A stretch of 56,920 nucleotides of DNA from Myxococcaceae bacterium. Lineage in GTDB: Bacteria > Myxococcota > Myxococcia > Myxococcales > Myxococcaceae. Of this stretch, positions 20,730 to 33,079 are shown piece by piece. The stretch spans positions 1 to 56,920 of the forward strand of contig JADGRA010000064.1 in the NCBI GenBank assembly GCA_017881265.1, read 5' to 3'. How positions within the stretch are numbered: the stretch's first letter is position 1; each line of letters begins with the position of its first letter. The notes below the pieces were generated by a model. It did not search any database. It saw only the letters and a program-made list of their open reading frames with translations, and was not told the DNA's origin. Both the position numbers and the translations under genes were made by a program.

Positions 20730-21232
20730 GGTGTGACCTCCGCCAGGGCGCCGCCGAGGACACCGCGAGCTGCGTCGCGGAGCTTCGGGTCCATGCCGGC
20801 CAGGGAAACCGTCACCACGATGCGCTCGCTGCTGACGAGGTCGCGCACGGCTTTGGCAACCTTGCGCCGCGAATGGGCCGAGAAGATGGCCAGCGCCAAG
20901 AAGTTCGACGCCCCGGCGAAAAGCATGGTCAGCTCGAACATCACCACCCCGAAGGCCGTCCAGGCGACGATGGGCTTGCCGCCGACGATGAGGCCCAGGG
21001 CCTTGGAGGTGCCGACCTCGAGGGCCGTCGCACAGGCGAGCCCGGTCAACCCCCCGACGAGCGCCACCCAGCCCAGCGCGCGCGAGTGGCCGGTGTGCTC
21101 GACCTCGTGCACCACTGGGAACGCAGCGGGGCTCGAGACCTGCGCGTTGGACACTCCGCGGTCGCGCAGGCTCAGCACCGCGCGCAGCGCCTCATCGGGG
21201 TCAGCGTAGACCGCCACCAGTTCCTCAGGCAT
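20726..21232 (-). CDS. actD: Alternative complex III subunit ActD (DUF3341)
   Basis: A 168-residue protein with an N-terminal ferredoxin-like domain (ELVAVYADPDEALRAVLSLRD) and two hydrophobic helices (LGWVALVGGLTGLACATAL and IVAWTAFGVVMFELTMLFAG), which is the DUF3341 layout of ActD, a subunit at the membrane face of alternative complex III. The C-terminal soluble tail (RKVAKAVRDLVSSERIVV) resembles a perioplasmic or cytoplasmic ferredoxin-like repeat. Start ATG 21232 overlaps the end of actC by eight bases. Confidence 0.88.
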   Translation of the reverse strand: MPEELVAVYADPDEALRAVLSLRDRGVSNAQVSSPAAFPVVHEVEHTGHSRALGWVALVGGLTGLACATALEVGTSKALGLIVGGKPIVAWTAFGVVMFELTMLFAGASNFLALAIFSAHSRRKVAKAVRDLVSSERIVVTVSLAGMDPKLRDAARGVLGGALAEVTP

Positions 21233-22559
21233 GGCTGGCCTCGGGGGTGACAGCGGCGTCAACGGCGTGCTGGCTCTGCATACTTTCGGAAATGGCCATG
21301 CAGGGGAACAGCTTGATGAAGATGAGAAAGAGCATGAGGAACCAACCAAATCCCCCAAGACAGATGAAGGACTCCTTCCAGCTGGGGATGTAATTCCCCC
21401 AATTCTGAGACACGAAACTTCTGGCCAGCGTGGTCACGATGAACAGAAAGCGCTCGAACCACATCCCGACCGTGACCAGCACCGAGATGGTGATGAGGGT
21501 CGGCAAGTGATTTCGTGCCCGTGACCAGAACAGCGCCAGTGGCGCGACGCTGTTGGAAATCACCACACCCCAGAACACCGGCGCGTACGTTCCCGTCGCG
21601 CGCCACCGGAACACTTCCATCTCCGCCTTGCTCCCCCGGTAGAACGCCATGAAGAACTCGGTGGCGTACACGAAGGTCATCACCAGCGACATCGCGAGCA
21701 ACAGCTTCGCGAGCATGTCGAAGTGCTTCGGAGTGATGTAGCGCTCGAGGTGATAGCCGCGCCGGAGTCCGGACAGCAGAAGCACCGCGACGGCGATGCC
21801 CGAGAAGATGGCTCCCGCGACGAAATAGGGCGCAAAGATGGCCGAGTGCCAGCCCGGCATCACCGTCATTGCGAAGTCCCAGGACACCACGCTGTGCACG
21901 GACACAGCGAGCGGAATCACGACGCCGGCGAAGATGGGGTAGGCCTTCTCGAAAATCCGCCACTCCCCATCCGTCCCCGAGAAGCCGAGCGAGAGCACGC
22001 GGTACAGCGGGCGTCGCCAGCTCTTCACCTGCCTCGCGAGGAGCGCCAGGTCCGGAAGCATCCCCATGTACAGGAAGAGCATGCTCACCGTGACGTAGGA
22101 CGTGATTGCAAAGACGTCCCAGGTCAGCGGTGACCGGAAGTTCATCCACAGCTGTCGCTGGTTCGGATAAGGCAAGACGAAGAAGAAGAGCCAGGAACGT
22201 CCGATGTGAACGATGGGGTAGAGGCCGGCGGTCATGATGGTGAACACCGTCATCGCCTCGGCGGAACGCCCGATGGCTGCACGCAGCGGGGAGCGCGTGA
22301 AGAAGAGGATGGCCGAGACCAGCGTCCCCGAGTGACTCACCCCGATGAAGAAGACGAAGGTGGTGATGAGCGCGCCCCACATCACCGGTTCATTCAGCCC
22401 GGTGATTCCCAGACCCTGGCGCAGGGCCACCGACCAGGCCCAGCCTCCCAAAGCGACGAGGGACAGGGCGATGCCGAGCGCGAGCCAATAGCGCCAGGTC
22501 GTCTCCGACATGGTCGCTACGGTGTCCTTCTCAATTTGCGCCAGACTGACTTCGCTCAC
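21225..22559 (-). CDS. actC: Alternative complex III quinol-oxidising membrane subunit ActC (NrfD/PsrC family)
   Basis: A 444-residue integral membrane protein with about ten helices of the NrfD/PsrC fold, the quinol-binding core of alternative complex III. Characteristic segments are GVSHSGTLVSAILFFTRSPLR, GRSWLFFFVLPYPNQRQLWMNF, SVHSVVSWDFAMTVMPGWHS and FMAFYRGSKAEMEVF. The GTG at 22559 overlaps the actB stop (GTGA); ATG at about 22511 is an alternative that would remove 16 residues. The frame is open further upstream inside actB but that is a shadow. Confidence 0.93.
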   Translation of the reverse strand: MSEVSLAQIEKDTVATMSETTWRYWLALGIALSLVALGGWAWSVALRQGLGITGLNEPVMWGALITTFVFFIGVSHSGTLVSAILFFTRSPLRAAIGRSAEAMTVFTIMTAGLYPIVHIGRSWLFFFVLPYPNQRQLWMNFRSPLTWDVFAITSYVTVSMLFLYMGMLPDLALLARQVKSWRRPLYRVLSLGFSGTDGEWRIFEKAYPIFAGVVIPLAVSVHSVVSWDFAMTVMPGWHSAIFAPYFVAGAIFSGIAVAVLLLSGLRRGYHLERYITPKHFDMLAKLLLAMSLVMTFVYATEFFMAFYRGSKAEMEVFRWRATGTYAPVFWGVVISNSVAPLALFWSRARNHLPTLITISVLVTVGMWFERFLFIVTTLARSFVSQNWGNYIPSWKESFICLGGFGWFLMLFLIFIKLFPCMAISESMQSQHAVDAAVTPEASHA

Positions 22560-25342
22560 GTCGAGCCTCTTCGGCGGCGGGCCAGATAGAAAACGCCCGG
22601 TTGGGTGTTGAGTTCCTCCAGCAACTTGTAGGCGCGCCCATCCGCCGCCCTTCGGGCGATGGCGGAATTGGGGTCCTTCAAGTCGCCGAAGACGATGGCT
22701 TGCGTCGGGCAGGATGCGGCGCAGGCAGAGACAATGTCTCCGTCGCGGAGCCCCCTCTTTTCGAACTTGGCCTGCTCCTCCCCCGTGCGGATTCGCTGAG
22801 AGCAGAGGGTGCACTTCTCGGTGACCCCTCGCTCGCGAACGGTCACGTCCGGGTTGAGGCCAAGCCGCTCCGACGGAGCCCGCGGCCAGTCGTAGAAATT
22901 GAACCGACGGACGCCGTAGGGGCAGTTGTTCTCGCAGTACCGGGTTCCGATGCATCGCGCGTAGACCTGTGCGTTGAGGCCCTCAGGGGTGTGGTAGGTG
23001 GCGAATGTCGGGCAGACCGACTCGCAGGGGGCGGCCGTACAGTGCTGGCACCCGAGCGGCAGGTAGGAAACCTCGGGCGTGCCATGGCTCTTGTCGACGT
23101 CGGCCATGATGGGAAGCCACGACATCGAGCGACCGCGCGCGACCTGGTCGGCGCCAACAATGGCGAGGTTGTTCTCGACGTAGCACGCGGCGGTGCAGGC
23201 TCCACAGCCGTTGCAACGATCGAGGTCGATGGAGAGCGCCCAGTGATGGACCGGGTGCTCGACGGGCGGATACATCGACGGCAGCGGCACGGCCGGCGGC
23301 AGCGCGGCCGCCGGCGCCTCGACGGTGCGGACGAGCTTCTCCGCGCCCTTGGCTCCCCCGACGCCGGTGTGCGACCGCTCCACCCTGCCCCCGGTGCGGC
23401 GAAGCGTCACGCGCGCACCGGCCCCGATGAAACCCTTGCTCTCGAGGAGCGCCGTCGCATCGCCGACCGGAACCGCGGCGACCCCCGCGCGGACCGAATC
23501 CGTCACGAAGGCCGGCAGCTCGCAGCGACCGCCAGGCCCCTCCAGGGCCAGGACGTCTCCCGTTTTCAGCCCGAGGGGAGAGGCAGTCGTCGAGTTCAGC
23601 TCGACCCACCCCGTCCATGAAAACCCCGAAAGCGGGTCGGGAATCTCCTGGAGCAGCGCGCTTCTTGGCTGCCGACCGTCGAGGTGTCGGAAGGTCGGCG
23701 CAATCACCAGCGGAAGGCCCTGCTCCGGGCCGTGGAAGGTGACAACGGACGGGAGCTGGGCAAGCACACCCGCCGAAAGCGATGGAACAACTGCCGCGAC
23801 CTCCTCCAGGCGGAACCCTTGCTCGATTTCCTTCGGCTGGAAGGTCGCCCTGAGCGCCTCTCCGAACGTCTCCTTCGGAAGACCGGTCGTCTTCCCGAGG
23901 ACGCGCGCGACGGCAAGGAACTCATCAGCGGCTGCGCGCGTCCCGAGGACCGGCTCCATCACCGGCTGCTGGATGCCCACGACGCCCGGACGCGTCCTGA
24001 CGTCCGACCAGTTTTCGAGGAAGTAGTTGTCGGGAAGCACCAGATGGGCCTTGCGGGCCGTGTCATCCAGTTCATTGACGAAGGTCGCGATGAACGGGAC
24101 GCGGGCCAGGGCTCCGGTGAGGCCGGCGTAGACCGGACCGTAGCCAGCCGGGTCGGCATGGTGGAAGACGACGGCACCGACGTCCCCCGCTGCGGCCTTC
24201 CGGGTCAGCTCTGCCAGCTCCATGGAGGGCTGAGCGGGGGCGGCCGGGAAGAAGCGCAGCGTTTGCCCGACGTTTCCAAGCACGGCGTTGAGGACCTGGA
24301 CCGTCTCGGCGAGCGCTGCGGCGTCAGCGCCTGCGACGGCGCGGCCCGGCCCGAGACAAAGGCTCGGACGTGCGCTGAGCAGCGCGGTCGCAACCTCCTG
24401 CAGCCTCTTGGGGTCGATTCGGGTGCGGGCAGCGACCGTGGCGGCGTCAAACGGAGCCAGCCGGCGCTGGAGGTTTTCGAGGGTGCCAGGTTCCAGCCCC
24501 GCTCGCGACCCGGCACGGTCGACCACCTGACGGAGCAGTCCAAGGACGAAGATGCTCTCCGTCCCTGGCTCCACCGAAATCCACTGGTCGGCCGCGGCCG
24601 CCGTCAGCGAGAGCCGGGGGCCGACGTAGATTGACCTGCCTCCGGCGGCACGCTGGTCGGCGAAGGCACGCGCTTGCTCAACCGGCGAGCCCTCCTCCAC
24701 GAAGTCATCTCCGATGGAGAGAATCAGCTTGGCCGATGCGAGGTCGGGGACGGCACGAAGGGCCGTGCCGAAGGCACGCTCCTGTCCCTGCCGCAGCCAG
24801 GGCCGGTCCATGGGGTCGAAGGTGACGACCTGCGCCGGAGCCTGCCCCAGTGCCTCGAGCCACGTGCCAAACAGCTTGCCGAGCTGGCCCGTCTCCGGAC
24901 GGGTGACGACAACCACCAGCTTCTTGTCGTCGAGCGCGCGCTGAAGGCCCGCGGCAAACTGCTTTTCGGCCTCTCCCCAGTCAATCTCCTTCTCGCCGGC
25001 GCGCGGCGTGCCGAGGCGCCCAGGCGCGTACAGCCCCTCGATGGAGGCTTGGCCGCGCGGGCACAGTGCACCGCGCCCGATGGGGTAGTCAGGATTGCCC
25101 TCCAGCTTGACGGCACGTCCCTCCCGCACCCGGGCGGTCGCCCCGCAGGAAGCCGGGCACTCGCGACAAACGGTGCGGTAGTGGCGCGCCAAGCCTGGGG
25201 TTGCGTCGTCGGGTGGAATGGCGTGCGGGACCAGGTACCGCGGAAGCTTGTCCGAGCAACCTGCCAGGGCCCCTGTCCCGAGAGCGCCAACCGCGGTCCC
25301 GAGGAAGCCTCTTCGTGAAACCTTCATCGGTGGTTTCCCCAT
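22556..25342 (-). CDS. actB: Alternative complex III iron-sulfur subunit ActB (molybdopterin-type domain plus ferredoxin domain)
   Basis: A 928-residue periplasmic protein with a Tat signal (RRGFLG near residue 8). Domain 1 is a molybdopterin-oxidoreductase-like fold with an N-terminal Cys cluster (CRECPASCG ... ALCPRG); in this family it carries no molybdenum. Domain 2 at the C-terminus is a ferredoxin array: CNGCGACTAACYVENN, CQHCTAAPCESVCPT, CIGTRYCENNCPYG, CTLCSQ and CAASCPT, enough for three 4Fe-4S and one 3Fe-4S centre. It passes electrons from ActC toward the heme subunits. ATG 25342 shares one base with the actA stop (TGATG). Confidence 0.95.
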   Translation of the reverse strand: MGKPPMKVSRRGFLGTAVGALGTGALAGCSDKLPRYLVPHAIPPDDATPGLARHYRTVCRECPASCGATARVREGRAVKLEGNPDYPIGRGALCPRGQASIEGLYAPGRLGTPRAGEKEIDWGEAEKQFAAGLQRALDDKKLVVVVTRPETGQLGKLFGTWLEALGQAPAQVVTFDPMDRPWLRQGQERAFGTALRAVPDLASAKLILSIGDDFVEEGSPVEQARAFADQRAAGGRSIYVGPRLSLTAAAADQWISVEPGTESIFVLGLLRQVVDRAGSRAGLEPGTLENLQRRLAPFDAATVAARTRIDPKRLQEVATALLSARPSLCLGPGRAVAGADAAALAETVQVLNAVLGNVGQTLRFFPAAPAQPSMELAELTRKAAAGDVGAVVFHHADPAGYGPVYAGLTGALARVPFIATFVNELDDTARKAHLVLPDNYFLENWSDVRTRPGVVGIQQPVMEPVLGTRAAADEFLAVARVLGKTTGLPKETFGEALRATFQPKEIEQGFRLEEVAAVVPSLSAGVLAQLPSVVTFHGPEQGLPLVIAPTFRHLDGRQPRSALLQEIPDPLSGFSWTGWVELNSTTASPLGLKTGDVLALEGPGGRCELPAFVTDSVRAGVAAVPVGDATALLESKGFIGAGARVTLRRTGGRVERSHTGVGGAKGAEKLVRTVEAPAAALPPAVPLPSMYPPVEHPVHHWALSIDLDRCNGCGACTAACYVENNLAIVGADQVARGRSMSWLPIMADVDKSHGTPEVSYLPLGCQHCTAAPCESVCPTFATYHTPEGLNAQVYARCIGTRYCENNCPYGVRRFNFYDWPRAPSERLGLNPDVTVRERGVTEKCTLCSQRIRTGEEQAKFEKRGLRDGDIVSACAASCPTQAIVFGDLKDPNSAIARRAADGRAYKLLEELNTQPGVFYLARRRRGST

Positions 25343-25908
25343 CACTTGTGGCACACCAGGCAGTCGCGGGACGCGTTGCGTTCCTCGTGGCACGTCAGAC
25401 AGCGGCCCATCGTGAAGGGCTTCTCCTGGCGGACAATCTTTCCCGCTGCCACGTCACCGTGACACTCCTTGCACTCGACCTTGGCTCTGACATGCATGCG
25501 GTGGGAGAAGTAGATGAAATCCGGCACCGCGAAGACGCGCTCCCAGCGGAGTGGCTGCCCGTCCTCGAAGCGCTTCACCAGGATTTGCACCTCGGGCTTG
25601 TCCTTGCCGACGAACTTGTGACAGCCCATGCACTTGCGTCCCGATGGCAGCCCCGCGCTGGGCGACTTGTCGGCATAAGCGTGGCAGTCCAGGCACGGGA
25701 TTTTGAACTGGCCGGCGTGAATCTGGTGGTTGAAGGGCACCTCGCCAGCCGGACTCGGCTGGCCAGGTGGCACCTCCGCGATGGCAGGCGGGGGCACGGG
25801 CGCAGCAGCTGATTGTGGATGCGCCTCGAAGGAGCCAAACGCGATGGCGATGGCAACCAGCGCGAGGGCAACCCCCGTCCAGCGGGCACTTCGACCAGGC
25901 CTAGACAT
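25342..25908 (-). CDS. actA: Alternative complex III pentaheme cytochrome c subunit ActA
   Basis: A 188-residue membrane-anchored periplasmic cytochrome. One N-terminal helix (VALALVAIAIAFGSFEA) precedes five c-heme sites: CLDCH, CMGCH, CKECH, CLTCH and CLVCH, the last at the C-terminus (CLVCHK). The distal His residues FNHQIHAG and FSHRMHVR are typical axial ligands of this family. It starts the act core after a cupredoxin-like gene, with six bases between them. Confidence 0.94.
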   Translation of the reverse strand: MSRPGRSARWTGVALALVAIAIAFGSFEAHPQSAAAPVPPPAIAEVPPGQPSPAGEVPFNHQIHAGQFKIPCLDCHAYADKSPSAGLPSGRKCMGCHKFVGKDKPEVQILVKRFEDGQPLRWERVFAVPDFIYFSHRMHVRAKVECKECHGDVAAGKIVRQEKPFTMGRCLTCHEERNASRDCLVCHK

Positions 25909-25914
25909 CGCCGC

Positions 25915-26514
25915 TCAGCGCTTGACTGAGAGATTCTGCGTAACGGTCTTGCCAGCCACGACGGTGACCGTCTCGGGGGCGGCCTTCAGCTTGTTCGCGT
26001 TCCAGACTTCGAGCTGCCAGGTCCCCGGCGGCACGTCCTTGAGGGTGTAGTTGCCCTTGGCGTCCACCGCCGCGGAGTAGGGGTTCTGGCCGACGAAGAT
26101 GTAGGCCAGCATCTCGGGGTGGATGCTGCAGAGCTGCGCGTAGACGCCGGTCTTCTTGAACGTGTAGCTGGCTTCCTCGCCCTTGGCGAAGTTGCCGAGA
26201 TTGTAGCTTTCACCATCGGGCGAGTAGACGTTGTGGGCGACGGCGTCGCTATTCAGAAACCGCACCGTGTCGCCCACGGTCACCGCCATGACGCGGGGGA
26301 TGAACTTCATCCCCTTCTGGTCCATGGCCAGTTTCTTGGGTGTGTACGTCCCGGGCACCAACTTCAGGTACACCACCGTGTCTTCCATGTACTTCGTCGG
26401 CGTGACGTCTACCTTGCCGGTGACGGTCCCTCCTTCAGCGAGCGCCACCGCAGGGAGGCAGAGGGCGAGGACGGCGATGAGGGGACGAACTGGGGCGCAT
26501 ACGCTGGGCGTCAA
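25915..26514 (-). CDS. Periplasmic cupredoxin-like (plastocyanin-type) protein
   Basis: A 199-residue exported protein. After a signal peptide ending AVALAEGG come two beta-sandwich parts: a cupredoxin-like domain with VTVGDTVRFLNSDAVAHNVYSPDG (first ligand His) and VYAQLCSIHPEMLAYIFVG, where C-S-I-H-P-E-M supplies Cys, His and Met of a type 1 copper site, followed by a carboxypeptidase-regulatory-like domain (GNYTLKDVPPGTWQLEVWN). The start appears to be TTG 26514, seven bases after AGGAGG; no ATG or GTG is available. It lies between a cytochrome-porin gene and actA, so an electron-transfer role with alternative complex III is likely. Confidence 0.8.
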   Translation of the reverse strand: MTPSVCAPVRPLIAVLALCLPAVALAEGGTVTGKVDVTPTKYMEDTVVYLKLVPGTYTPKKLAMDQKGMKFIPRVMAVTVGDTVRFLNSDAVAHNVYSPDGESYNLGNFAKGEEASYTFKKTGVYAQLCSIHPEMLAYIFVGQNPYSAAVDAKGNYTLKDVPPGTWQLEVWNANKLKAAPETVTVVAGKTVTQNLSVKR

Positions 26515-26572
26515 GGTGTGACCTCCTGGAACAGAAATGGTTGGATGGAACGTTGCTTCGCAGAGACACACC

Positions 26573-28051
26573 CTACATGGCGAACCCGAGATACACAGCG
26601 ATGGATTGGAACTCCGAGTACTTTGTCTTCGTCGTCGCGCCGCTCTGTGGGGCAATGACAATCGGGGCCCATCCGGATGACCCGACCGAAGCCGAACCAG
26701 CGGGCGGATAGGGGCCGGCCCATGACAGTGGCGAGTTGGTCGGGTCTGCAGGGAAGCCGCTCGCGAAGTCGAAGCTGCCGACGACAAGCACCTTGATGTT
26801 GGAGACGATGAGGAACGCGATGCCAGGCACGATGTGGAGGTCGCTCACGGTCGAGCCGCCCGTGGGGCTCAGCCAGATGTTCTCAACCCGAAGACTCGGA
26901 ACGAACCACGGCCAGACGACGTAGCTGAGCTCGCCGTAGACGACATTGGTCGTGACCTGGCCGAGGGCCCCCTGGAGGTTCACCCACCCAGCGTTGTGGC
27001 CCTGATTGTAGAAGCCGAGGTCGAGCTCTGCCGACCCGAGCATCCCGCGAGCGCCGAGACCCCAGGTGAAGGAGGTATCCGTGTACGGGGTCGCACCCGG
27101 CGGCGTCGTGGTGGGGTTCGCGACGTGTTCGTTCGAGTGGTAGACGAAGGCGTCCAGTGTGAGCGAGGTCTCGGCCCAGGGCTTCATCGGGTCCTCTGGC
27201 CCAGCGTAACCTTCCCCGTCGAGGCGCATCCCGCCGAGCTTGAAGCCAGCTTGTGCGTACCAGTTGGTGCTGTTGAACGCGCTGCCCCAGGAGTTCTTCC
27301 CGGCATTCCACCCGACCGCGTAGTCCAAGCGCCCGATGATGGTGCCGCGCACCTCGATGCCTGGATAGTTGTCGACGAGGACAAACGGGTCTCCGGAGAT
27401 TCCATAAATCCCCGTCACCGGTGCGTTCGGGATGAGCTGGTCGGCGATGTACGAGGAATGCGGCCCGAAGCTGCTGATGGTCGGAAACCCAAGGCCCACC
27501 ACCAAGTTGAAGGCGTGCTGGGGCTGGAAGAGGTCGTTGAAAAGCAGCTGAGCGTGCTCGACCGAGAGCGTCCCATCGGCCGCGAATGTCACCTCTCCCC
27601 AGGCGGTGATGGTGTCAGTGAAGGAGGCTCCGAACCACATGTGGAGCTCCTCGACTTCTGAATCCAGGATGACTTGGCTTCCATTGTTCGCGCGGGGGAC
27701 CGTCGAGTTCTTGTCGGGGTAGAACTGCACCTGGCCATTCATCCCGATGGAGAGCGGGACCGAAATCGGGATGGTGCTCGGCCAGACGGCATTCGGGAAG
27801 CTCTTCTTGTTTGCTTCCTGGCCGAGGGCGACCGTCTCCTGCTTTACGTAGTCGCTGTCGACGCCCGGAAACAGGTAGCCATTTCGACGGAAGGCTTCGC
27901 CGAAGGGCGTCAGCTTTGGGTAGACGGTGTGGCAGGTGAGGCAGCTGGTCCCGTACTTGCGCGCGAACGCCGGGATTGCCTGCGCTGGACCTGCTGCCGT
28001 GAGGACCACGGCGGAAAGGACGAGTTTGATTGCGAGGTTCCGCCGGGTCAC
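26573..28051 (-). CDS. Monoheme cytochrome-porin fusion, outer-membrane protein
   Basis: A 492-residue exported protein. The signal peptide ends about residue 25 (AGPAQA), immediately followed by ARKYGTSCLTCHTVYPKLTPFGEAFRRNGY with a single c-heme site CLTCH. The remaining 430 residues are strand-rich with alternating hydrophobics and a terminal aromatic-hydrophobic strand (SIAVYLGFAM), the pattern of an outer-membrane beta barrel. This N-terminal heme plus barrel layout resembles Cyc2-type cytochrome-porins, though I cannot show homology. GTG 28051 follows GGAGGGG. It heads the act operon, so it could carry electrons across the outer membrane or anchor a carrier near it. Confidence 0.82.
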   Translation of the reverse strand: MTRRNLAIKLVLSAVVLTAAGPAQAIPAFARKYGTSCLTCHTVYPKLTPFGEAFRRNGYLFPGVDSDYVKQETVALGQEANKKSFPNAVWPSTIPISVPLSIGMNGQVQFYPDKNSTVPRANNGSQVILDSEVEELHMWFGASFTDTITAWGEVTFAADGTLSVEHAQLLFNDLFQPQHAFNLVVGLGFPTISSFGPHSSYIADQLIPNAPVTGIYGISGDPFVLVDNYPGIEVRGTIIGRLDYAVGWNAGKNSWGSAFNSTNWYAQAGFKLGGMRLDGEGYAGPEDPMKPWAETSLTLDAFVYHSNEHVANPTTTPPGATPYTDTSFTWGLGARGMLGSAELDLGFYNQGHNAGWVNLQGALGQVTTNVVYGELSYVVWPWFVPSLRVENIWLSPTGGSTVSDLHIVPGIAFLIVSNIKVLVVGSFDFASGFPADPTNSPLSWAGPYPPAGSASVGSSGWAPIVIAPQSGATTKTKYSEFQSIAVYLGFAM

Positions 28052-28718: not shown

Positions 28719-30023
28719 TCACCAGTCAAAGAAGTAAGAGAAATTGAAGCCCACCCCGAAGTTGAAGGCGTCCTGTCGTCCCACCGTGTTGAGAGTGACC
28801 TGGTACCAGGCCGAGATGGAGAGGTCCCGTCCGATGAGCTTCCCGCCCTGGAACCGCATCACCGGGACGAAGATTTGCTTGAGGAAGTCCCAACCGAGCT
28901 TCGTGTCAACTGACAGGAAGGTCGTCGAGGGAAGGTTGAAAACGAGGATGGGTCGGAGGAAGAGGAGATTCACTCCCGGGTAGCCGCCCACGTTGCCCAC
29001 GGATTTGCTCCAGCTGAGCTCCGTTGTCAGCGACACCCAGCCGGCCAGTCCAACAGCGACTGCGTAGACGGGCGTCAGCACCCACGGCGCCCCGATGCTG
29101 GCCTCCGAAGCGCTGTTCCACTGAAGCGAAAGCGCCGCATATTGGCGCACGCTCCCGCGTGCGTAGAAGGCCCAGGCGAAGGCTGTGTTGACGCTGGCCA
29201 CACCCGAAACCGAGGGCGGCTGGGGTGCCGGAGGGTGCACCGGGTCGGGAAAGATGGCCGCGACCGGCACCTTCACGGCCACTGCGAACTGGTTTCCTTT
29301 TCCGAAGACGAGCAATGGATTGAGGGTGATTTGGTCCAGATTTGCGGGCTTGGCCGCCGGCGACTGCAGGTAGTCGAAGTACATCGCGATTTGGTTCCGC
29401 GAGAAGGCAACCGAGTTGAGGCCTTGCAGAATGGCAACGGTGTCATCGATGCGAGCCTGGCTCGTCATCGTGTTCACCGTGTCGACCAGAGTCGCGGCCT
29501 CGCTGGCGATTCCCGGCTCCGCCGCTTTGCAGGCGGGCGAGAGCTCCGCCTCGTTCTCTTGGAGGCAGCTGAGCAGGTCCCCGGCTTGCGACATGAAGTT
29601 CGCGCACAGCCGCTGGGCCTCCGGCCGGCACGCCGCCTGCAGCTGACCAATTTTTTCCCGAGCAGTGTCAATCTTCGCCACCTCGGCCGCGCACCGCGGC
29701 GAGAGGACGTAATCATTGCGCGTCAAACACTTGAGCATCCGGCCCTCACCGGGCCGGACGTTGGCGCAGAGCCGTTGGGTGTCGCTGGAGCAAGCATCCG
29801 AGAACTCTGCGATGAGTTCCTTGGCTTTCGTGGCTTCCGCTACGAGCTTCGCCTGGCAAGCGGGGGTGGCTTGGCTCTGGTGCTGGACCAAGCACTTGTT
29901 AACCCGCCCACCGCCTGGCTTGACGTCGGCACAGAACGCCTTCACGTCATCACTGCAGGGGTCCGCCGCGCGGGCTCGACCGGCAAGCAGGAGCACGGTG
30001 AGAACTACCAGCCTTCGCTCCAT
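28719..30023 (-). CDS. Exported protein with three cysteine-rich (GLG1-type) repeats fused to a beta barrel
   Basis: A 434-residue protein. After the signal peptide (ATG 30023, preceded by GGGAGGGG) come three repeats of about 45 residues, each with the spacing C-x7-C...CL...C: PCSDDVKAFCADVKPG, ACSSDTQRLCANVRPGEG and ACRPEAQRLCANF. This is the cysteine-rich repeat first described in eukaryotic Golgi apparatus protein 1 and seen in some proteobacteria. From about residue 190 the chain becomes strand-rich and ends in NFSYFFDW, like an outer-membrane barrel with a terminal aromatic. Repeats in the periplasm plus barrel in the outer membrane is the likely arrangement. Function unknown. Confidence 0.75.
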   Translation of the reverse strand: MERRLVVLTVLLLAGRARAADPCSDDVKAFCADVKPGGGRVNKCLVQHQSQATPACQAKLVAEATKAKELIAEFSDACSSDTQRLCANVRPGEGRMLKCLTRNDYVLSPRCAAEVAKIDTAREKIGQLQAACRPEAQRLCANFMSQAGDLLSCLQENEAELSPACKAAEPGIASEAATLVDTVNTMTSQARIDDTVAILQGLNSVAFSRNQIAMYFDYLQSPAAKPANLDQITLNPLLVFGKGNQFAVAVKVPVAAIFPDPVHPPAPQPPSVSGVASVNTAFAWAFYARGSVRQYAALSLQWNSASEASIGAPWVLTPVYAVAVGLAGWVSLTTELSWSKSVGNVGGYPGVNLLFLRPILVFNLPSTTFLSVDTKLGWDFLKQIFVPVMRFQGGKLIGRDLSISAWYQVTLNTVGRQDAFNFGVGFNFSYFFDW

Positions 30024-30430
30024 CGCCCCTCCCGTTCCGAACTGTCTTCCTGCGCGCGACCCGACGAAGTCGCACGGCAAAGTCATTTGGTTCGTCCCTC
30101 GCTGCTCGGTCACCTTCATCGCAGGGCACGGCTGCACACGCTACCCGAGCGTAGTCGGGACCTCCGGTCAAGCCATTAGGGAACGTCAGCGACGGTACAG
30201 CTTCATCGCGTCAATGAGTTGCTGGGCGGACTCGGCGACGTCGCCGAGGTGCTTCGGCTGGGGTCGACCATGCGGAACTGAACGTGGTCCTCGACCCGCC
30301 CACGGCGGTCCACAGGGCGAACCTGGCATCCTCCGGTGTGGTATTCGACCGGTCGGTCTGGAACTGTCCGGTTCGGGAAGACCGCTGGCCGTCTAGCTCC
30401 TCCACCCTGTTCGACCGTCCAAGGCGCGAC
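30024..30430. other. Divergent intergenic stretch with a possible gene remnant
   Basis: This lies between a minus-strand exported protein and the P-type ATPase. On the minus strand 30186-30290 reads ...QPKHLGDVAESAQQLIDAM then KLYRR and a stop, which looks like the C-terminus of a helical protein, but the frame has no credible start, so it may be a remnant. No magnesium riboswitch could be recognised. Confidence 0.35.
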
Positions 30431-33079
30431 ATGCTCCCGCAACCTCTGGGTGACGCTGGCGCTCCCCTCACCGGCGGGCCCCCGCCAAAGAAGGAAGCCT
30501 CGGCCGCGCGGTCCGAGAGCGCGGCCCAGCTCCGAGAGGCGGCGCGTGCCTCGGTGGACGAGCTCTACCAGGCCAAGCAAACCGGGCCGCAAGGCCTCGC
30601 CACCCTGGTCGCGGAGGAGCGACTTTCGACCCACGGTCCCAACCAGGTCGCGCACGAGCGCGCGCTGCCCTGGTACTTCCAGCTGTGGCACGGATTTGCG
30701 AACGCCTTCTCCGCCCTCCTGGCGGTGCTGGCCACCGTGTCCTGGTTCACCGGCGACAGGGAATCCGCCCTCATCATCGCCGCCATGGTCTTGTTGAGTG
30801 GCCTGCTGCGCTTCTTCCAGGAGCGCCGTGCCAGCCTGGCCGCGCAGAAGCTGCAGGAAATGGTCCGCGTCACCTGTACCGCCATCCGGTGCGACGAGAA
30901 CGGGGCAGTCAACGACGTCGAGCTCCCCATTCGGGAGCTGGTGCCAGGGGACCTGGTCAAGCTCTCGGCCGGCGACATGATTCCAGCGGACCTGCGGCTG
31001 GTTGCCGCCAAGGACCTCTTCATTGCCCAGTCCGCCCTGACCGGGGAGGCGCTTCCGGTCGAGAAGACGGCCACCAGCGTCAGTTCCCCGGCGACCAACC
31101 CCCTGGAACTCGGCAACGTGGCCTTCCTCGGCACCAACGTCACCAGCGGCACGGCGGTCGGCCTGGTCATCAACACGGGCCAAGCCACGTATTTCGGCCG
31201 CATCGCAGAGAGTCTCACCGGGCGGCGTGCCCTGACCAGCTTTGAGAAGGGCGTCCGCGGCGTCAGCCTCCTCCTCCTGCGCTTCATGGCCGTCATGACG
31301 GTCCTGGTCTTCTTCATCAACGGCTTCACCAAGCACGACTGGAAGGAGGCCTTCTTCTTCGCGCTGGCCGTCGCGGTCGGCCTCACGCCGGAGATGCTGC
31401 CGATGATTCTCTCCGGCACGCTCGCCATCGGCGCCGTGGCGATGTCGAAGAAGAAGGTCATCGTCAAGCGGCTCAACTCGATTCAGAACTTCGGCGCGAT
31501 GGACGTCCTCTGCACCGACAAGACCGGAACCCTGACCGAGGACCGCGTCGTGCTCGAGATGCACTGCGACGTCGTGCGCGAGGAGGACGAGGGTGTCTTT
31601 GAGTTGGCGTACTTCAATTCCTACTACCAGACCGGTCTGAAGAACCTGCTCGACAAGGCACTGCTCGCACACGGGAGCGTGTCCACCGCCAACGTCACCA
31701 AGGTCGACGAGATTCCCTTCGACTTCTCCCGCCGCATCATGTCCGTGGTCGTGGACATCGGGGGGCAGCGCCGGCTCATCGCCAAGGGCGCTCCGGAAGC
31801 AGTCTTCAAACGGTGCTCGCTGGTCGAGGTGAACGGCGAGATTCAGGACCTCGACCCCCTACTGCTCCCGGACCTTGGCGAGGAGCTCGACCACCTCCAG
31901 GCGCAGGGCTTCCGGGTCCTGGCCATCGCCTACAAGGACGTCCCGCAGGACCGCACAGTCTACTCGAGCCAGGATGAATGCGACTTGGTGCTTCGGGGCT
32001 ACGTAGCGTTCCTCGACCCACCCAAGCTGTCTACCCGCAGCGCGCTGGCCGCGCTCGACAAGCACGGCGTGCACGTCAAGGTGCTCACCGGAGACAACGA
32101 CATCGTCGCCAGGAAAATCTGCTCGGACGTGGGCCTGACGGTGGGACGGGTGGTGCTCGGTCAGGACGTGGAGGCCGCGACCGACCACGAGCTGGATGCG
32201 CTGGTTGAGCACGCAACGCTCTTCGCGCGGCTGGCCCCGGCGCACAAGGAGCGGGTCGTCCATGCCTTGCAGCGCAATGGCCACGTCGTGGGCTTCATGG
32301 GCGACGGCATCAACGACGCTCCGGCGCTGCGCGCGGCCGATGTTGGCATTTCCGTCGACAACGCCGTCGACATCGCCAAGGAATCGGCCGACCTCATCCT
32401 TCTGGAGAAGGACCTCCTGGTTCTGGAGGACGGCGTGCTGGAAGGCCGGCGGGTCTTTGGCAACATCACCAAGTACATCAAGATGGGCACCAGCTCGAAC
32501 TTCGGGAACATGTTCTCCGTCGTCGGCGCGAGTGCGTTCCTGCCGTTCTTGCCCATGCTTCCCATCCAGCTGCTGACCCAGAACCTTCTTTATGACTTTT
32601 CGCAGCTGGCGATTCCCTTTGACCGTGTCGACGACGAATACCTTCTCAGCCCTCGTCGCTGGAAAATCGATGACATCGGTCGATTCATGCTGTTCTTCGG
32701 ACCGGTGAGTTCCGTCTTTGACTACGTGACCTTCGGCTTGATGTTCTTCTTTTTCAAAGCCAACACCCCAGAGCACCAGGCCCTCTTCCAGTCAGGATGG
32801 TTCGTCGAGGGGTTGCTGTCACAGACACTCATCGTCCACATGATTCGGACGCGGAAGATTCCCTTCCTGCAGAGCCGTCCGGCACTGGCGCTCGGGCTGT
32901 CGACGCTGGCAGTGATGGCGGTGGGCATTCTTTTGCCCTTCACCGGGTTCGGCCGCTCCCTCGGGATGACGCCCCTGCCCCTGGCCTTCTTCGGGGCGCT
33001 CGCCTTCATCCTTCCGGCGTACATGGTGCTCGCTCAGGTCGTGAAGACCTGGTTCGTGCGCCGCTACGGCTACAACTGA
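30431..33079 (+). CDS. mgtA: P-type ATPase, magnesium-transporting (MgtA-like, type IIIB)
   Basis: An 882-residue inner-membrane transporter that imports Mg2+ at the cost of ATP. The actuator loop has SALTGEALPVEK, the phosphorylation site is LCTDKTGTLTE, and the nucleotide/P domain carries VLTGDNDIV and GDGINDAPALRAADVGISVD. Transmembrane helix 4 has VGLTPEMLPMILSG, and VLCTDKTGT is preceded by RLNSIQNFGAMD, both typical of the MgtA/MgtB group. The N-terminus has a poorly conserved 30-residue Pro/Ala/Lys-rich tail. ATG 30431 is preferred; the frame continues upstream without domain sequence. Confidence 0.94.
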   Translation: MLPQPLGDAGAPLTGGPPPKKEASAARSESAAQLREAARASVDELYQAKQTGPQGLATLVAEERLSTHGPNQVAHERALPWYFQLWHGFANAFSALLAVLATVSWFTGDRESALIIAAMVLLSGLLRFFQERRASLAAQKLQEMVRVTCTAIRCDENGAVNDVELPIRELVPGDLVKLSAGDMIPADLRLVAAKDLFIAQSALTGEALPVEKTATSVSSPATNPLELGNVAFLGTNVTSGTAVGLVINTGQATYFGRIAESLTGRRALTSFEKGVRGVSLLLLRFMAVMTVLVFFINGFTKHDWKEAFFFALAVAVGLTPEMLPMILSGTLAIGAVAMSKKKVIVKRLNSIQNFGAMDVLCTDKTGTLTEDRVVLEMHCDVVREEDEGVFELAYFNSYYQTGLKNLLDKALLAHGSVSTANVTKVDEIPFDFSRRIMSVVVDIGGQRRLIAKGAPEAVFKRCSLVEVNGEIQDLDPLLLPDLGEELDHLQAQGFRVLAIAYKDVPQDRTVYSSQDECDLVLRGYVAFLDPPKLSTRSALAALDKHGVHVKVLTGDNDIVARKICSDVGLTVGRVVLGQDVEAATDHELDALVEHATLFARLAPAHKERVVHALQRNGHVVGFMGDGINDAPALRAADVGISVDNAVDIAKESADLILLEKDLLVLEDGVLEGRRVFGNITKYIKMGTSSNFGNMFSVVGASAFLPFLPMLPIQLLTQNLLYDFSQLAIPFDRVDDEYLLSPRRWKIDDIGRFMLFFGPVSSVFDYVTFGLMFFFFKANTPEHQALFQSGWFVEGLLSQTLIVHMIRTRKIPFLQSRPALALGLSTLAVMAVGILLPFTGFGRSLGMTPLPLAFFGALAFILPAYMVLAQVVKTWFVRRYGYN

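Follow-up and report, generated by a model that had tools for sequence, protein, structure and literature searches.

The window, meaning the whole stretch of 56,920 nucleotides analysed here (contig JADGRA010000064.1 of the Myxococcaceae bacterium assembly GCA_017881265.1), carries on its reverse strand a gene whose product combines three cysteine-rich repeats with a predicted outer-membrane beta-barrel. The features of this gene, together with its divergent neighbour, are the following.

28719..30023, minus strand: coding sequence, cysteine-rich repeats plus outer-membrane barrel, 434 amino acids plus stop
29964..30023, minus strand: probable Sec signal peptide, residues 1-20 (judged by eye)
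29856..29957, minus strand: PF00839 repeat 1, Cys23-Cys56 (Pfam, cysteine positions)
29691..29792, minus strand: PF00839 repeat 2, Cys78-Cys111 (Pfam, cysteine positions)
29529..29630, minus strand: PF00839 repeat 3, Cys132-Cys165 (Pfam, cysteine positions)
29397..29516, minus strand: predicted long helix 170-201 and conserved pre-barrel segment to Arg209 (alignment, AlphaFold2)
28722..29396, minus strand: predicted 12-stranded beta-barrel, strands 210-432, C-terminus at residue 434, ...YFFDW (model, structural and profile matches)
30284..33079, plus strand: divergent neighbour, magnesium-translocating P-type ATPase of the MgtA type (TIGR01524)

The MgtA-type neighbour scores 1188 bits against TIGR01524 (cut-off 610.75), and 260 bp separate the start of the fusion gene from its first possible start. 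The promoter scan returned 0 sites, and the terminator scan found 3, compared with 2.9 in shuffled sequences. An assembly accident is an unlikely source of the fusion, because the same fusion is present in four other genomes (G018, G026, G096 and G098), the last of which is the complete chromosome of Anaeromyxobacter oryzae.

Cysteine-rich repeats

The initial annotation had described the N-terminal half as three repeats of the Golgi apparatus protein 1 type with regular cysteine spacing, and our analysis bears out both points: PF00839 (Cys_rich_FGFR) matches three stretches of the 434-residue protein (E 1.1e-18, 67.4 bits, curated Pfam cut-off 22), and the spacing C-x7-C-x12-C-x11-C is exact in three of three repeats. 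The twelve cysteines (23/31/44/56, 78/86/99/111 and 132/140/153/165) are the only ones in the protein, the barrel domain having none, and a PF00839-repeat search of the source genome placed the repeats at 29877-29963, 29715-29819 and 29553-29645. All twelve were invariant in the 13 three-repeat proteins chosen for alignment A9 (five fusions and eight stand-alone proteins; L014 and L031, which also have three repeats, and the two-repeat proteins were left aside), and all 13 rows match PF00839 at E <= 0.01. Single PF00839 matches above the cut-off were also obtained in G018, G026, G096 and G098. The protein resembles the Golgi apparatus protein 1 repeat family in its four-cysteine repeat above cut-off, present in three copies, and in its probable signal peptide, and differs in that the three repeats are here fused to a bacterial barrel.

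The same annotation had called the repeats eukaryote-like, which is true of the name of the Pfam family only. Within the phylum 14 of the 195 genomes contain PF00839, by eye mostly in stand-alone proteins with two or three repeats, and 13 rhizobial plasmid records have matches to the repeats. Two stand-alone PF00839 proteins are encoded in the source genome itself, by adjacent genes (L061, 8756-9160 and 9296-9796, both on the minus strand), and one more lies 0.7 kb after the A. oryzae fusion. Because the repeats also occur as stand-alone bacterial proteins, the term overstates the case and should be dropped; the repeat is at home in bacteria. Our search of the open-access literature found no paper on a bacterial role of PF00839 repeats.

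A 180-residue model of the repeats alone, built from 13 sequences, reached a pLDDT of 81. Structural searches with it gave a best Foldseek E of 2.3 and a best Z of 4.0, so that no known fold could be named, which does not prove a new one, and the repeat profile had no convincing match among PDB sequences (best 0.093). Two of the 13 repeat rows touch the CHCH model weakly (1.4e-6 at best). CHCH domains are helical hairpins held by two disulfides, and this match fits, if weakly, a picture of disulfide-stapled helices. In exported proteins, cysteines that are even in number and strictly spaced are commonly paired as disulfides, and each repeat is probably stapled by two such bonds. Such bonds are plausible in this organism because its genome contains seven DsbA-family matches and one VKOR match. 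At G000:C44:79267-80412, VKOR and DsbA-like matches lie 0.3 kb apart, each in a 442-residue frame, and this pair is probably one fused disulfide-forming enzyme.

Barrel fold and the wider barrel family

The AlphaFold2 model, calculated from the seven-sequence alignment A1, shows helices up to residue 201 followed by 12 strands between residues 210 and 432, with moderate confidence (mean pLDDT 71, pTM 0.51, 7 sequences). Arg209, at the end of the pre-barrel segment, is invariant in the seven aligned barrel sequences, as is the C-terminal aromatic residue Trp434, which in one row is followed by one further residue. Foldseek with this model retrieved 226 PDB chains at E <= 0.001, and the best 50 of these are, by title, nearly all outer-membrane or designed barrels, 9j9n being an artificial metalloprotein. 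In VIA-align comparisons the highest score was that of FapF (5o65_C, Z 21.7, 217 residues, rmsd 2.6), followed by KdgM (4fqe, Z 20.9, 170 residues), NanC (Z 20.2, 187 residues), the COG4313 channel 4rl8 (Z 19.4, 219 residues) and the autotransporter NalP (Z 18.0, 204 residues). The modelled fold is clearly that of a closed 12-strand outer-membrane barrel, in agreement with the initial annotation, and a soluble fold for the C-terminal half was ruled out by the 12-strand model and these barrel matches. Which of the 12-strand barrels are the nearest kin is not settled by the modelled fold alone.

At the sequence level the barrel has no Pfam or NCBIfam family, its profile (A3) matches no PDB sequence at E <= 10, and PF13505, a general barrel model, gives a hit at 0.031 to a single member. 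None of the seven barrel members matches PF13557 up to E 10, and profile comparison by hhalign gave a probability of 0.1% against six PF13557 proteins of relatives and of 0.24% against FadL, so that kinship with PF13557 or FadL was rejected. The net charge of the barrel ranges from -4 to +9 over the seven sequences, and because its sign is inconsistent no ion selectivity is argued from it.

For FapF of Pseudomonas, PMC5557850 describes a trimer of 12-strand barrels in which a helical plug is connected with a coiled-coil platform in the periplasm. It resembles our protein in placing a 12-strand barrel after periplasmic helices (Z 21.7), although other barrels score nearly as high and it is not singled out by the comparison. 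It is set apart by the stretch ahead of its plug, which comprises a helical region of 39 residues and a disordered linker of 42, and by its service in amyloid export (PMC5557850), and its sequence identity to the window barrel is 13%. The likeness could be taken to mean that our protein is a FapF-like exporter of a polypeptide or polymer, in which the repeats take the place of the coiled coil, providing both the platform for trimer formation and the gate. By Z score no structure matches better than FapF, which also shares the order of periplasmic helices, pre-barrel segment and 12-strand barrel (PMC5557850), but KdgM and NanC come close to it, and those neighbours that could be identified, by eye and with Pfam, are small-solute transporters and sulfatases, which makes an exporter quite unlikely in our estimation. 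Because confidence in our model is only moderate, a pore plug is allowed by it, though not visible in it.

Beyond the closest copies, weak hits of the A3 profile led to a second barrel type, A7. The A3 and A7 barrels align by hhalign with a probability of 94.3 (E 1.1e-7, 138 columns), whereas 30 column-shuffled and one reversed A7 control scored 0.0-0.6% against A3. The A7 profile, which finds 27 of 193 genomes, in return detects the G096 fusion (E 2.1e-8, profile columns 18-271), the G102 copy that a contig end truncates (3.9e-7) and two of the copies without repeats (3.0e-5 and 4.7e-5). Judged from these profiles, the fusion barrel and a broader barrel family that likewise has no Pfam model are homologous. 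The two types are alike in this homology, detected both ways, and in some kinds of neighbour, and they differ in that the aligned A7 members have no cysteine repeats; in a tree of 14 barrels the A7 barrels form a separate group (support 100/100). One A7 protein matches 156 plasmid records, mostly rhizobial, and among 15 of these matches listed two have an annotated gene, in both cases a 'transporter'.

Distribution of the fusion

With the A3 profile, barrels were found at E <= 0.001 in 13 of the phylum's 195 genomes; in eight of these the hits are strong, and they fall at ten places. Repeats and barrel share one frame at five of these (the window, G018, G026, G096 contig 165 and G098), so that the survey of this domain pairing called for by the initial annotation yielded the source genome and four relatives. 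The sixth copy (G102 contig 111), cut by the contig end, begins at the apparent last cysteine of repeat 3. The remaining four copies (G072, G096 contig 227, G087 and G102 contig 97, the start of the last being uncertain) have no repeats; with four of ten strong copies lacking them, the barrel does not need the repeats. In the tree, the barrel-only copies fall inside the fusions (support 96/94 and 100/99). This placement would mean that they lost the repeats, a reading that is unsafe because they sit on a long stem (1.21).

Genomes outside the phylum were covered by a scan of 84,980 species genomes, for which the pattern consisted of four fusions, so that distant copies may have been missed; it returned five loci, including the A. 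oryzae chromosome, and all matching named records are Myxococcota. The fusion is rare and conserved; the repeat and the kind of barrel are each known, and we found no paper on their combination in the open-access literature. A phage or mobile origin was considered and rejected: none of the 16 stretches of viral contigs picked up by the pattern scan is a relative, PHROG gave no match at E <= 1, and the plasmid records all fall short of 80% coverage of the protein, their matches being confined to the repeats. A defence system was likewise rejected, as PADLOC had no match.

Gene neighbourhoods and a possible transport role

In contrast to the divergent MgtA-type gene of the window, the other fusions have upstream neighbours of several kinds. 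A sodium:solute symporter gene (SSF) precedes the G018 fusion; SulP and DUF2252 genes, in overlapping called frames, precede that of G096; that of G026 has upstream a sulfatase, a small protein that Pfam does not match and, 17 bp away, FadL; and for that of G098 the upstream gene is Na_H_Exchanger, and next comes a polytopic protein, also unmatched in Pfam. In three of the five fusions the gene directly 5' encodes an inner-membrane transporter, a post-hoc test to be read against 11 polytopic genes among 89 called genes of the source genome (a crude hydropathy count with our own gene caller and cut-off, on stretches of which L061 and L111 overlap by 3 kb). The barrel-only copies in G072 and G096 have AspT 26 bp upstream, if ATG is the start, and that of G087 has AspT and an asparaginase within 6 kb, while none of the recurrent partners was found within the 6 kb read around the barrel-only copy of G102.

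Additionally, at 18 further A7-type loci, none of them the source of a query, SulP was found near 12, AspT near 6, sulfatases near 4 and CorA near 2. Because genomes hold 0-5 SulP genes each (25 genomes), the chance of finding one within 6.5 kb of an A7-type barrel is by arithmetic below 1 in 50; the SulP-positive loci are not independent, since 10 of the 12 come from one genus (g23), the others from g26 and g8. Five A7 loci have no partner nearby, namely two of the source genome (L155 and L156), L158, L159 and L160. Altogether, SulP, AspT, other inner-membrane transporters and sulfatases recur near both barrel types, mainly in one genus. As a separate observation, the A7-type barrels at L109, L110, L144-L154 and L157 lie near SulP permeases, some also near AspT-type permeases or sulfatases, and an open frame first seen downstream in L109 recurs in most of the 18 loci. 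These SulP-neighbouring loci, in one genus and two others, are a possible transport cluster, on which a literature search turned up nothing.

The sulfatases and FadL could also indicate a channel that takes up hydrophobic or sulfated compounds, as has been put forward for the COG4313 (PF13557, Phenol_MetA_deg) channels, and that is coupled to these proteins. In one fusion locus FadL precedes the fusion by 17 bp within a run that contains a sulfatase, and 4 of 18 A7-type barrels have sulfatases nearby; most other partners, however, belong to families that move ions or polar acids. The barrel fold itself is alike (Pput2725, 4rl8, Z 19.4), and this channel is 12-stranded with an N-terminal segment inside the lumen, according to PMC4493636, but the window barrel has neither a PF13557 match (none up to E 10 in seven of seven) nor profile similarity to six PF13557 proteins (0.1%). 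We regard such a channel as unlikely.

The twelve conserved cysteines, together with the divergent MgtA gene and with CorA near 2 of 18 A7-type barrels, could instead be read as a barrel-anchored periplasmic receptor whose cysteines bind a metal or ligand, perhaps linked to the magnesium pump. Cysteines of this number and spacing nevertheless commonly form disulfides in exported proteins, DsbA-family and VKOR matches are present, and none of the other four fusions was found to have MgtA next to it, so that a receptor of this kind appears very unlikely. Ligand capture or metal binding, which the initial annotation had put forward, found no support here, and the neighbouring genes suggest a transport channel instead.

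The repeats would lie in the periplasm, because they are N-terminal to an even-stranded barrel. This position also bears on a comparison with the myxobacterial TraA/TraB system, in which TraA has cysteine-rich repeats and TraB is a barrel. A cell-surface adhesin or recognition system of this kind would have to accommodate repeats that probably face the periplasm, and TraA is a separate protein; we hold this explanation to be highly improbable.

Our data would be best accounted for if the protein as a whole were an outer-membrane solute channel with a periplasmic, disulfide-stapled stalk, working with an inner-membrane transporter, a reading to which we assign a probability of roughly 55%. Within this reading the domain architecture has good support, while the disulfides, the gating and the cargo are inferred. 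The 12-stranded C-terminal barrel would let a small solute or ion through the outer membrane, the three N-terminal PF00839 repeats would form a periplasmic rod of helices, each disulfide-stapled, and the long helix and conserved pre-barrel segment would link this rod to the barrel, at its mouth or in its lumen. Rod and pre-barrel segment could hold, plug or position the pore, as in FapF, whose plug is a precedent for such a role, and the rod may reach toward the inner-membrane transporter encoded alongside. The variety of partners suggests that the channel serves whichever transporter is at hand. No single partner is common to all five fusions, and our best guesses for the cargo, made from the neighbours, are small anions, C4 acids such as aspartate or sulfate-linked compounds.

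A more specific proposal, which we consider distinctly improbable, is that the repeats act both as a redox-sensitive, disulfide-stapled gate, opening or closing the channel, and as a bridge that docks it onto varying inner-membrane transporters (SulP, sodium symporter, cation antiporter, magnesium pump); if true, this would make a conduit through both membranes with neither a TonB nor an ABC system. The solute channel with its stalk would add a disulfide-built periplasmic element to the few known ways of gating outer-membrane channels or tying them to inner-membrane transporters. Furthermore, a barrel family without a Pfam model gains a likely transport context, and the bacterial fusion of repeats and channel would offer a tractable system in which to learn what the PF00839 repeat does.

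Lastly, the genes adjoining the fusion on its other side appear to belong to electron transfer. The minus-strand run at 21225-28051 encodes a haem-motif protein, a cupredoxin-like protein, a c7-type cytochrome (QrcA-like), a molybdopterin-like plus iron-sulfur protein (QrcB/QrcC-like, with scores under the equivalog cut-offs) and NrfD, and by this gene content it is a putative module of the menaquinone-reductase or alternative-complex-III type. The haem-motif protein (26573-28051, minus strand, 492 aa) has no Pfam, NCBIfam or PADLOC match and, judged by eye, combines a probable signal peptide and a single haem-c motif (CLTCH) with a beta-rich remainder; it is perhaps a cytochrome fused to an outer-membrane barrel, for which we take Cyc2 to be the comparison. 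Its relatives were found in 16 of 60 genomes, many of them matching only about residues 6-65, the haem part.
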